Positions 56,524 to 60,632 of a DNA stretch of 64,000 bases are shown here, piece after piece. The first letter of the stretch is position 1, and the number at the start of each line of letters is the position of its first letter. The notes below the pieces were generated by a model, which was given only the letters and a program-made list of their open reading frames with translations, was not told the origin of the DNA and ran no database searches. The translations under genes were made by a program, and so were the position numbers. Source of the stretch: Neoconidiobolus thromboides FSU 785 (taxonomy: Eukaryota; Entomophthoromycota; Entomophthoromycetes; Entomophthorales; Neoconidiobolaceae); the NCBI GenBank assembly GCA_025603075.1, contig MU626268.1, positions 124,001-188,000 of the forward strand, read 5' to 3'.

Positions 56524-57611
56524 ATGTCAAAGGGAGACAAAAAGAATGCCTATTTCGCTAAGCTTCGTCAGCTTTTTGATGAATACACTTCCGTATTCGT
56601 TGTCAACGTTGATAATGTAACTTCTAACCAAATGCATCAAACTCGTGCTTCTTTACGTAAAGATGCCGTTATTCTTATGGGTAAAAACACTATGATCCGT
56701 CGTGCCATGAAGAATTTCTTACCAGAACTTCCACAACTCGAAAAATTACTTCCATTCGTTAGAGGTAATATTGGTTTCGTATTCACTAACTCCGACCTTA
56801 AATCTGTTCGTGATGTTATCCTTGCCAATAAGATTGCTGCTCCAGCTAAAGCTGGAACTATTGCTCCAGTTGATGTCTTTATCCCAGCTGGTAACACTGG
56901 TATGGAACCTGGTAAGACCTCTTTCTTCCAAGCTTTAGGTGTCCCAACCAAGATTACCAAGGGTACCATTGAAATTATCAATGAAGTCCACATTGTCAAG
57001 AAGGATACCAAAGTTGGTCCATCTGAAGCCATTCTTCTTAACATGATGAAGATCTCTCCATTCACTTACGGTCTTACCGTTATTCAAGTTTACTCTGATG
57101 GTAACAACTTCCCATCTTCCGTTCTTGATATTGATGATGAAACCCTTCTTAAGGCTTTCTTCTCTGGTGTATCTTCAGTTGCCGCTATTTCTCTTGCTAT
57201 TGAATTCCCAACTGTTGCTTCAGTACCTCACTCTCTTGTCAATGTATACAAGAATGTTCTTGCTGTTTCCGTTGAAACTGAGTACACTTTCCCAGGTTCT
57301 GAAAAGGTAATTTATTTTTTTCTATTTTATTTGATATTTCAAATGATGAACTATAATTCTTTGAACTTTGTTTTGATATTTAAAAACACACACTCTAATT
57401 TTTTCCTGATCATATTGTTGTTTTTTAAATAATGTGAGAATTTGTTTATTTACTTTTTTATTTTTAGATCAAGGCTTACTTAGCTGATCCATCTGCTTTC
57501 GCTGCTGCCGCTCCAGCTGCTACTGAAACCGCTGCCGCTGCCGCTGCTCCAGCTGCCGTTGAAGAAGAAGAAGATTCAGATGAAGATGCTGACTTCGATC
57601 TTTTCGATTAA
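56524..57611 (+). CDS. RPP0: 60S acidic ribosomal protein P0 (uL10), 308 aa
   Basis: Two exons, 56524-57306 and 57468-57611, around a 161-nt intron, longer than most here. P0 is the base of the ribosomal stalk, holding P1/P2 dimers and recruiting elongation factors. Marks: [104 protein letters not shown], then an Ala-rich hinge and the acidic tail [16 protein letters not shown], which ends in the LFD motif of stalk proteins. Codon use is markedly richer in C-ending codons than in the rest of the window, as expected of a very highly expressed gene. Confidence 0.97.
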
Positions 57612-58382
57612 GCACTTGATTAAAAATATTTAATCTTTTAATAGCATTTTCATTTATGAATTGTTAAACAATTTATTTTTCAAAACTTTTAATTTTCAGA
57701 TCCTTTGTAATATTGCTATAAGTTCATTTACAATAAATATGGTAGATGATTGATTTATTAAGAACCTTCTATCATTTAAGATATACATTGAGTTAAAATG
57801 GCTTGATTACTCTAATATTTGGCATAAAAATTTAAAGTTTAATCTATGAGAGATTAATTTCTAATATATAAAAGCCATAGCTAAAACTATTGTTAATGTA
57901 AAGCAATGAATGTCTTATCTATAAGTTGAATACTAATTCTACAATTATAATATCAAATTCTCTAATGTAATATAGCTATTTTTAGATTGAAATTTTAATT
58001 TAATTTACAACTATTTTTAAATTAAATATTTGTCAATTTAAAACTCCAACTGTGACTATTATCTTCTCTTAATAAATCTGCCACTTAGAAATTTCTTTTA
58101 AGCCAATCTTATACTTCCACTAGATTTTGAATTCAGCAAACCAATCAAGGAAGATTATCTATTGAGTGGAAATTAATGATTTGATACAAAAGTTTGGAAA
58201 GTAGTAGGAGAATTTTAACAGCAACCAATTGGGAGTATATAAAACTTAATATTCACATCAAAATTCAAATTAAAAAAAATCTTAAAAATTGCTTTTTTAG
58301 CAATTTAAATTTAAATTCTATTTAACAAACAGCAACACTTATTTTATCTCTATTACTTATTTAATCAGGTCAAGGAAACGCC
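57612..58382. other. intergenic; HAC1 promoter and leader
   Basis: Spacer between P0 and the bZIP gene. CCAAT at 58225-58229 and TATATAAAA at 58236-58244 lie about 140 bp before the ATG at 58383. No exon is seen. Confidence 0.5.
58225..58244 (+). promoter_or_regulatory. CCAAT and TATA-like elements of the bZIP gene
   Basis: CCAAT at 58225-58229 followed closely by TATATAAAA at 58236-58244. The unusual closeness of the two is noted; chance matches are common in AT-rich DNA. Confidence 0.42.
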
Positions 58383-59278
58383 ATGTTCACTTCAGACTAT
58401 TCACAACCTATCACAAGCAATTGGTCTTTAGAGGACATGGTAGCCCTAGGACAAAACTATGACACCGATAATTATGCACAATACAACAACAATTTATTCA
58501 TTAACCCCAGCCCACAATTACCCTTGTCAGATCACTCCAATCCTATTGTAACCTCAGCCCCTTATTCTTTTGACCCAGTTTCAACAGAACTTATGAATAT
58601 GTCCCAACCAGACTATAACTCTAATCTTTCTGCTTTATTACCAAGCACCGCCTTTGACCATGGCACTCCTAATGCTATGACTGAGTCCATTGCTTTAGGT
58701 AGTGAATCTAGAGACTATTCTACTAGTCCTAGTGAGCTTCCAGAACCCATCAAATTGAAGCCAGGACGTAAACGTAAAGATGAAAAAGTTGATCGAGAAG
58801 CTTTAAAGCGTGATCGTATGATTCGTAACCGTTTAGCCGCCCAAAGATCTAGAGAGCGTAAACGTAAAGAAGTGATTTCAGTTGAAAAAGAGAATTTACA
58901 GTTAAAGGATCGCAATAAGGAGTTAGAGACCAGAGTAAGTACGTTAGAAGCATCCAATCTTGCCTTAATGGAAAGGTTGGATGCCCTTTCGCGTCAGATG
59001 CAAGCTATGCAAGGCCAAATGCAAATGAACAATTTAGGCTCGGTACTTTTCAATCGTTTCGGCGAGACAGCAGCGCTCGTTGATAGGGGCTTTTTACCCC
59101 GTTCCCAGCAGCGGAAGCGATTGAACCAGTATCTAGTACTTCATTATCAAATACTATTAGCCATGCAAACAATGCTTCGGACTTACTTCCTGGTTTGGTG
59201 GACAACCCGTTTATGGGTCATCTCTTCGATCTCCAATGGCCCTCCATTAACGGAGGATATTCTGTGCTTGATAACTAG
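58383..59278 (+). CDS. HAC1: HAC1/XBP1-type bZIP factor, IRE1-spliced form, 285 aa
   Basis: The frame 58383-59070 joined to 59109-59278 after loss of the proposed 38-nt intron. The bZIP domain is at about residues 130-200: basic region RNRLAAQRSRERKR (Asn149 to Arg157 spacing as in HAC1/XBP1), then a leucine zipper (ENLQLKDRNKELETRVSTLE). Before it is a Ser/Pro/Asp-rich N-terminus. The new C-terminus after splicing reads ETAAEAIEPVSS ... SDLLPGLVDNPF, MGHLFDLQWPSING and ends VLDN. It is acidic and hydrophobic like an activation domain and stops at TAG 59278. HAC1/XBP1 factors switch on the unfolded-protein response when IRE1 splices their mRNA in the cytoplasm. The bZIP is seen; the splicing is inferred from the site pair. 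Confidence 0.8.
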
Positions 59279-59420
59279 TGAAGGCAATGAATTTAATTTT
59301 CATACCGTTTCTAAATATCTAGCTAAGTTGGAACCTACTGAGATTGAAGTAGAATTTAAAGACTTTGACCTTGAAGCTAGGGCCAGCTTAAATTTTCCTC
59401 AAAAATGGCTCCCGCCATAA
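58383..59420 (+). CDS. unspliced frame of the HAC1/XBP1-type gene, 345 aa
   Basis: If the 38-nt segment is kept, translation runs on to 59420. Residues 1-229 are shared with the spliced form. After that comes a hydrophobic, Trp/Leu-rich stretch at about residues 249-283 (YLVLHYQILLAMQTM, then YFLVWWTTRLWVI), a short acidic segment (EPTEIEVEFKDFDLE) and an end FPQKWLPP. Animal XBP1u has a hydrophobic region that holds its mRNA at the ER, and a translation pause near its C-terminus. The resemblance is suggestive only. Against it, a hydrophobic stretch can arise by chance from a shifted frame. The region 59109-59278 is open in two frames. Confidence 0.6.
   Translation: MFTSDYSQPITSNWSLEDMVALGQNYDTDNYAQYNNNLFINPSPQLPLSDHSNPIVTSAPYSFDPVSTELMNMSQPDYNSNLSALLPSTAFDHGTPNAMTESIALGSESRDYSTSPSELPEPIKLKPGRKRKDEKVDREALKRDRMIRNRLAAQRSRERKRKEVISVEKENLQLKDRNKELETRVSTLEASNLALMERLDALSRQMQAMQGQMQMNNLGSVLFNRFGETAALVDRGFLPRSQQRKRLNQYLVLHYQILLAMQTMLRTYFLVWWTTRLWVISSISNGPPLTEDILCLITSEGNEFNFHTVSKYLAKLEPTEIEVEFKDFDLEARASLNFPQKWLPP
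59071..59108 (+). other. proposed IRE1-type non-conventional intron, 38 nt
   Basis: The two boundaries each sit in a CAGCAGC heptamer (59068-59074 and 59106-59112), matching the IRE1 loop consensus CNG|CAGC with cleavage after the third base. The left heptamer is flanked by CGAG and CTCG (with one A-G mismatch between stem and loop). The right one is flanked by TTCC and GGAA, giving an exact 7-nt loop. The segment lacks GT...AG. Its length, 38, is 3n+2, like 26 in animal XBP1 and 20 in filamentous fungi, so removal shifts the frame. Confidence 0.8.
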
Positions 59421-59675
59421 CTTTGCTTAAATCTTCTCTTAAAAGTACTCAATTAATTGTAGTGCTCTATATTGTTGTATTAACTGTTATCTTTGTTAAT
59501 CCTATGGCTACCATATTAAACTTAATAAAGAAATGCTTCTTAAATATAACATTTTTGATTTTATACTAGTAAAATTTATAAATAATATTGGTTATTATTT
59601 ATTATTAAAAGAATAGGGGCTTTATTAGATAAAATAAGTTAGTGTTAAAAAGAGTGAAATAAAATTTAAATAAGA

Positions 59676-60263
59676 TTAAGACCAACCACAATAATCAGTT
59701 AACTTTTGAATGAGAGTTTGAGGATCAAACACATTATTATAGTACAAGGTAGGTAATCTACTTGTATCTGACCTGAACTCATCAAACATTTTTCGATTAC
59801 ATGAAGTGCAAATACTTTTTCCAGCTCTTATACCAATATTATTAATATTAACTTCCAACTGCGTTGATATCCTTCTAAAATCATTAAGACACAAAGTTTT
59901 TCCATCATCTCCTAAACCACATACAACGCTTGCTGCTTTAGTATCTGCCCACTTTGAATACGCTTCATAATTGTGCGTTAAAATAGAAGCTCCTTGACCA
60001 ATTCCAAGTTTGCAATGTTGATTAATATAGCTTGATGCATTAATTGTGGCTTCAAGACAAGTACTACTACAGACTGTGGTTAAACTGGTTAGGTAGAGAG
60101 TAGACTCGCCGTAACAATAGTCTAGGATCGGGTATTGTTTTTGAACTTCATCTTTGAGGTTAGAACGATCACACTGACTGTTTTCTATACCTCTTAAATC
60201 GCTACCAAATTGAGAGCTTTCAAGGAAGGTGATGAAGATGAATAACAAATAGATAAATAACAT
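59676..60263 (-). CDS. small secreted Cys-rich protein, 195 aa
   Basis: Single exon, 195 codons. MLFIYLLFIFITFLESSQ is a signal peptide. The mature part has about a dozen cysteines (SQCDRS, DYCYGE, TVCSSTCLEA, QHCKLG, VVCGLG, TLCLND, SICTSCNRK, DYCGWS), enough for several disulphides, and little else. No enzyme motif is recognised. Proteins of this layout are common in the secretomes of early-diverging fungi, often as large families of unknown role. Convergent with the bZIP gene, whose unspliced frame ends 255 bp away. Confidence 0.85.
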   Translation of the reverse strand: MLFIYLLFIFITFLESSQFGSDLRGIENSQCDRSNLKDEVQKQYPILDYCYGESTLYLTSLTTVCSSTCLEATINASSYINQHCKLGIGQGASILTHNYEAYSKWADTKAASVVCGLGDDGKTLCLNDFRRISTQLEVNINNIGIRAGKSICTSCNRKMFDEFRSDTSRLPTLYYNNVFDPQTLIQKLTDYCGWS

Positions 60264-60632
60264 GCTGATACTTGGTTTTAATGACTAAAGTATAAAGTAT
60301 AAGAACTAAGTTTGAAATAATTTAGTTAAATAATTTTCATTTATACACTTACAATTTAAGGTTCAGTTTACTTATAATTGGTATAGTTTATTTTAACGAC
60401 TAAATATGGGTTAGTTCAAACTTAGTTGTTAAACGTTGGGTTTAATAAACTACTACCAATGATATTCAAACTAGACTTAATGAATGTCATAATTCAATCT
60501 CATTATTATAAAATTAATAAGAGTATAGTTTTCGAACCAAAAAAATAAAACTATAAAACTGGATGTTAAAATTATTAAATATTTTAATTATATTTAATAA
60601 ATAAATAAGTTTGTAACCTTTACAAACTCTTC
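60264..60632. other. intergenic
   Basis: Promoter region of the Cys-rich gene; AT-rich, nothing else seen. Confidence 0.5.

Follow-up and report, generated by a model that had tools for sequence, protein, structure and literature searches.

IRE1-HAC1 splicing is already known. The metazoan XBP1 intron has 26 nt, and the two forms of the protein are XBP1u and XBP1s. The unspliced form of plant bZIP60 is membrane-bound. In yeast, the unspliced message is brought to IRE1 by mRNA elements, and Trl1, the yeast ligase, is a member of the T4 RNA ligase 1 family. Introns of 19 to ~850 nt have been reported, including a class of <50 nt in Saccharomycotina (PMC6222058). The HAC1/hacA/HXL1 introns include those of C. 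albicans (19 nt), A. fumigatus (20 nt), C. neoformans (56 nt, PMC3154848), and S. cerevisiae (252 nt) (PMC6222058, PMC3154848). In animals, the mRNA is brought to IRE1 by the XBP1u nascent chain (PMC6624018). No paper joining Entomophthorales and Hac1 was found in the open-access collection searched; the nearest paper on early-diverging fungi and Hac1 concerns, in its available part, the anaerobic gut fungi (PMC10512342). With the locus described below, the range of IRE1-HAC1 splicing would extend to the Entomophthorales.

The bZIP gene and its two predicted products

The window, which is the whole stretch of DNA analysed, comprises 64,000 nt (124,001-188,000) of contig MU626268.1 of Neoconidiobolus thromboides FSU 785. 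The HAC1/XBP1-like bZIP gene is located at 58383-59420 on the + strand. Its unspliced open reading frame encodes 345 aa, and the stop codon ends at 59420. Pfam analysis assigned the bZIP domain to residues 141-190 (58803-58952, +), with the bZIP_2 (143-190) and bZIP_1 (141-190) models each above the cut-off; the domain lies upstream of both splice sites. Its basic region presumably resembles that of HAC1/XBP1. The unspliced-frame tail has 114 aa (59076-59417, +) and ends in KWLPP. The first-pass annotation had claimed that removal of 38 nt changes the frame and gives an acidic tail, with a stop ending at 59278. The same result was obtained here: the spliced product would have 285 aa, and its second exon (59109-59278, +) encodes an acidic tail of 54 residues after GETAA, with a net charge of -6.

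Two bZIP protein searches returned 3 and 7 matches, respectively, and no relative named HAC1 or XBP1 was among them. Three of the 7 matches (P0005-P0007) entered no count. No PDB relative of the bZIP protein was found at 1e-3. The sole Rfam match in 57600-60600, with E up to 5, was snoJ26 at 58919-59036, whose score of 21.4 bits falls short of the cut-off (50). No protein named for N. thromboides was among the matches of the two bZIP searches, though its IRE1 is present in the database; therefore, the gene may be absent or mis-modelled in the public annotation.

Several open frames surround the gene. The unspliced tail is overlapped at its end by a 54-aa hydrophobic frame (59405-59569) in the spliced frame; this short frame has no Pfam match. 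A 195-aa frame on the - strand (59676-60263) also has none; its product, which begins with hydrophobic residues and contains several cysteines, is possibly secreted. The upstream neighbour (56524-57611), which we take to be a gene for ribosomal protein P0, has an acidic end (...DFDLFD) and is apparently broken by an ordinary intron.

Predicted splice-site motif and its rarity

The two CAGCAGC heptamers, 38 nt apart, were located at 59068-59074 and 59106-59112, and both of the annotated pairs of arms (CGAG/CTCG and TTCC/GGAA) are present. The two splice sites form an 8-nt direct repeat, CAGCAGCG. Both heptamers match CNG|(C/A)NGN, which is given as the specificity of yeast Ire1 in PMC8104961. 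Cutting as CAG|CAGC takes out 59071-59108 (+), a segment of 38 nt with the ends CA and AG. This segment is the predicted IRE1-excised intron, according to the motif, codon, shuffle, and relative evidence. The initial statement that no GT-AG pair is present is literally incorrect, as a GT...AG string of 30 nt was found inside (59079-59108); its length is a multiple of 3, though, so its removal would leave the reading frame unshifted.

The heptamer pair by itself is not rare, because a search for CAGCAGC-N12..42-CAGCAGC listed 17 matches in the 23.1-Mb genome (392 contigs), compared with 5 in the reversed control. The pair was therefore dropped as sufficient evidence, and the stems and the frame are also needed. 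All 17 pairs were examined, and identical ones were merged, leaving 15 distinct contexts. Among these, the pair in the bZIP gene is the only one that shifts the frame and the only one with stems; in the other 14 contexts, the spacing is always a multiple of 3, with <=2 flanking pairs at either site. The combination of two CNGCAGN loops, stems of at least 4 pairs, and a frame-shifting spacing appeared in 1 of 20,000 synonymous-codon shuffles and in none of 20,000 Markov sequences of the gene. One mismatch beside the loop was permitted in this stem test, because the observed 5' site needs one.

Computed RNA structure around the predicted splice sites

The 5' splice-site hairpin (59059-59083, +) has a stem of 8 pairs, including 2 G-U pairs, formed by 59059-59066 with 59076-59083. 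It presents the heptamer at 59068-59074, with the predicted cut between 59070 and 59071. An A-G mismatch (59067/59075) lies between the stem and the heptamer, so that the open loop has 9 nt. The 3' splice-site hairpin (59102-59116, +) has a 4-pair stem and a 7-nt loop, which contains the heptamer at 59106-59112, with the predicted cut between 59108 and 59109. Loops of 7 nt had been expected at both sites; this is correct for the 3' site, but for the 5' site it would hold only if the A-G pair closes the loop. Folding also identified an intron-internal GGGG/CCCC hairpin at 59086-59100 (+).

For the segment 59040-59136, the computed folding energy is -36.8 kcal/mol, a stability equalled by only 1 of 200 dinucleotide shuffles (z -4.28) and by none of 1000 synonymous shuffles (z -4.26). 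In a scan of the gene with 5-nt steps, the 97-nt segment of lowest energy starts at 59038. The minimum-energy fold joins the exon flanks rather than forming the twin hairpins. The twin-hairpin fold, when forced, has -32.7 kcal/mol, which is 4.1 above the computed minimum at 37 C, and its pairs have ensemble probabilities of 0.02-0.12 (5' stem) and 0.007-0.016 (3' stem). The isolated piece 59060-59117 forms the 5', GGGG/CCCC, and 3' hairpins at 25 C, with an extra inner pair in each splice-site loop; at 37 C these three hairpins were not formed. For the full stretch, the zipped form is still preferred over the twin hairpins at 25 C.

Without the intron, the exon flanks form 20 pairs at -26.9 kcal/mol in silico, compared with a mean of -11.9 for 3'-flank shuffles, none of which (0/500) was as stable. 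The 5' exon strand (59042-59063, +) and the 3' exon strand (59111-59133, +) are paired through 59042-59047/59128-59133, 59049-59060/59114-59125, and 59062-59063/59111-59112. This computed pairing may be interpreted as the zipped state after cleavage, as in XBP1, where a zipper-like structure is described as holding the exons (PMC6037481). Pairing of the yeast type between the 5'UTR and the intron was looked for, with the 100 nt before the ATG as the 5'UTR, and was not found: 270 of 500 shuffles paired equally well.

Codon usage in the two frames

The mean codon log-score of each frame was calculated against a reference of 4745 codons, drawn from IRE1 and from eight further open frames in the window. 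The reference frames were ATG frames of at least 250 codons, taken mechanically, so that some may not be genes, and one of them (56524-57432) apparently runs into an intron. The common frame is the best one up to 59070, with a score of 0.117. In 59111-59275 the spliced frame ranks first at -0.008 (z 2.84, relative to shuffled bases), followed by the unspliced frame at -0.33 (z 1.24). In 59279-59417, past the spliced stop, the unspliced frame is clearly the best (0.195; z 3.01), a coding signal that the first-pass annotation did not mention. Judging from these segment scores, both frames of the gene appear to be coding across 165 nt (59111-59275). The spliced frame is also the best of the three in 59421-59560, beyond both stops, where its score of -0.141 is close to the -0.008 of the second exon; therefore, the codon measure by itself is insufficient for the spliced frame.

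Related proteins and the two frames

Two related proteins extend across the splice-site region. At the two sites, P0001 (999-nt contig) shares GE[T/P]A and SQQRK, after which it continues in the unspliced frame. From the site onward, it aligns to the unspliced tail with a score of 63, compared with a shuffled mean of 27.6 (0/2000 as good). The tail after SQQRK gives a score of 50, which was reached by 6 of 5000 shuffles. Taken separately, the overlap with the spliced frame was matched in 171/5000 shuffles, and the remainder beyond the spliced stop in 113/5000, so the tail signal is spread and modest. The motif KW[L/F]PP is found at or near the end of both proteins (KWLPP in N. thromboides and KWFPPRLD in P0001). 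As read from the protein, an intron in the P0001 gene would have 41 nt and the same phase.

P0002 (1167-nt contig) contains GETAAEAVE, compared with GETAAEAIE in the spliced product, and the QQRK site is absent. The diagnostic match consists of four residues, EA[I/V]E, which were picked out by eye. The P0002 tail beyond these residues is like neither frame (989/2000 shuffles as good for the spliced frame and 713/2000 for the unspliced frame). Its short acidic tail has a net charge of -5, close to the -6 of the spliced tail. P0002 may derive from a spliced message, or its gene may lack the intron.

For two Syncephalis proteins, P0003 and P0004, the alignment covers 23% and 29% of the query, presumably its bZIP part. 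The tail of P0003, from Syncephalis fuscata, was also compared with the two unspliced tails, and no homology was found (4417/5000 and 4409/5000 shuffles as good). Scans of viral and genome contig collections found no DNA of the relatives.

IRE1 and ligase

IRE1 has one match in the genome, a single open frame (L006:551-3466) whose 971-aa product carries both a kinase and an RNase domain. Residues 495-970 are 100% identical to the database protein named for N. thromboides FSU 785 and share 65% identity with the named relative from Entomophthora muscae and 60% with that from Massospora cicadina. Among solved structures, the closest relatives bear the name IRE1 and are presumably the yeast and human chains. 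The same genome contains a match to the T4 RNA ligase 1 family, which covers the ligase domain and lies in two pieces in different frames. No match to RtcB was found in the genome; the same search identified RtcB in 9 of 14 control genomes.

When this IRE1 is aligned with yeast Ire1, K992 is replaced by D and Y1059 by K, as in the IRE1 chain 4pl3. These positions were counted back from the chain end, which we take to be residue 1115, and the yeast letters agree. According to PMC8104961, D/E together with K/R at these positions is the S. pombe-like pattern, which is also that of both human IRE1s; the K992D,Y1059R variant lets yeast Ire1 cut 9-membered loops, which the wild-type enzyme does not. 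Since that variant cuts such loops, the 9-nt loop at the 5' site may suit an IRE1 with the D/K interface. With its 9-nt 5' loop and a D/K-interface IRE1, this system would allow the interface model presented there for IRE1 specificity to be tested directly by biochemistry (PMC8104961).

Alternative explanations for the second frame

The unspliced protein might be the only functional product, with the motif being coincidental or decayed. In its favour, the reading frame stays open over 345 codons, and P0001 conserves the tail. However, the codon score of the spliced frame is the better one in 59111-59275, P0002 follows the spliced junction, and both the shuffles and the genome counts argue against a coincidence. 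This explanation is thus unlikely.

The probability is lower still that the second frame results from ordinary spliceosomal splicing or from an incorrectly set gene model. Ordinary introns seem to exist in this genome, as the ligase gene is found in two pieces in different frames, and 22 loose donor-acceptor combinations fit the frame change (donors GTA, GTG, GCA, and GCG; 28-160 nt). There is one consensus donor, GTAAGT, which would give an intron from 58935 to 59086. However, this intron would delete leucine-zipper sequence that is kept by both P0001 and P0002. P0002 keeps GETAA and then EAVE, which places the join inside the repeated heptamers. A join like that of P0002 is given by 9 placements of the 38-nt deletion, but none of the nine has GT-AG, GC-AG, or AT-AC ends.

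The least probable of the three is a programmed -1 ribosomal frameshift, for which CTTTTTA (59090-59096), ahead of the 3' hairpin, is one possible site: CTTTTTA lies in the intron hairpin within stable RNA structure, its phase allows a -1 shift, and a shift after TTA (59094-59096) would enter the spliced frame to give a 298-aa product, but that product would carry 13 extra residues between GETA and AEAIE, none of which is present in P0002, and the two stemmed IRE1 heptamers would be left unexplained.

Therefore, the HAC1-like bZIP gene of N. thromboides very probably contains an IRE1-type intron, and its product is likely a regulator of protein-folding stress. The frame-shifting intron proposed in the first-pass annotation is thus supported by several types of evidence, including the presence of IRE1 and a ligase, the exon pairing, the RNA structure, the codon usage, and two relatives. 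The unspliced protein also appears to be made and conserved.

For cutting, ligation, stress dependence, and activation, we infer the following course. Under ER stress, IRE1 would cut each CAGCAGC heptamer of the mRNA behind its third base. The flanking exon sequences would then zip into one long stem, and the 38-nt intron would leave. The exons would be joined by a tRNA ligase of the Trl1 kind. After GETAA, the 114-residue tail would be replaced by the 54-residue acidic tail, which might activate the 285-aa bZIP factor.

A possible targeting role of the unspliced tail

On the octanol scale, hydrophobicity in the unspliced tail peaks over the 19 residues 255-273 (59145-59201, +), a stretch that ends 72 residues before the C-terminus. 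Its octanol sum is -10.88 over 19 residues; on an insertion-type scale, the value is +4.78, which is unfavourable. The Kyte-Doolittle maximum of the tail is 0.99. An equal hydrophobicity on the octanol scale was found in 30 of 113 out-of-frame chunks, compared with 1 of 68 in-frame chunks. Out-of-frame translation in this AT-rich genome often looks hydrophobic, and the hydrophobicity of the tail is therefore unremarkable by itself; it was dropped as stand-alone evidence.

In human XBP1u, ~52 residues are described as separating the hydrophobic region from the peptidyl transferase centre, and the residues that are optimal for arrest include W256 and P258 (PMC6624018). W256 is reported to be conserved to Drosophila (PMC4138184). 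The hydrophobic stretch, its spacing, and the W-x-P near the end of the unspliced tail are like those of XBP1u, which suggests nascent-chain targeting. By analogy, the unspliced tail could tentatively be regarded as an XBP1u-like module, although this is rather doubtful. The hydrophobic segment would emerge while KW[L/F]PP pauses translation, and the mRNA would be carried to IRE1 at the ER. Two sequences (N. thromboides and P0001) are too few to prove nascent-chain targeting. In the open-access collection searched, at the level of titles and the starts of abstracts (PMC4138184 and PMC7580959 included), no hydrophobic or targeting role for unspliced fungal Hac1 was found.

If the analogy is true, co-translational nascent-chain targeting would not be an animal invention; it would predate the split of fungi and animals, or it would have arisen twice. 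The 165 nt of overlap would then be under selection in two frames. An XBP1u-like unspliced tail in a fungus could show which route of the mRNA to IRE1, by mRNA elements or by the nascent chain, is ancestral.

Comparison with known systems

The first-pass annotation had proposed 38 nt as a new size class. This was not borne out, and the predicted intron falls inside the known range of 19 to ~850 nt.

The locus shares with the fungal HAC1/hacA/HXL1 systems an IRE1, a ligase of the T4/Trl1 type, and a (here predicted) non-spliceosomal intron that is located after the bZIP and alters the C-terminal tail. It differs from them in the long unspliced tail, which is conserved in a relative, and in the 9-nt open loop at the 5' site. 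Unlike in S. cerevisiae HAC1, pairing between the 5'UTR and the intron does not go beyond chance.

Plant bZIP60 is similar in that IRE1 splicing alters the C-terminal part of the protein, and the unspliced tail in N. thromboides also has a hydrophobic stretch. However, this stretch is only mildly hydrophobic.

Compared with metazoan XBP1, the predicted intron is different in length (38 nt), and the ligase is of the T4/Trl1 kind, with no RtcB match in the genome. In both systems, the bZIP is followed by a frame-shifting intron with IRE1 hairpins, both predicted in N. thromboides, and the exons show zipper-like pairing, which is computed here. The two dimer-interface positions of IRE1 are likewise occupied by D and K. 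The unspliced tail also has a mildly hydrophobic stretch and a W-x-P near the C-terminus, as in XBP1u, where the comparison is one of features and not of tail homology.
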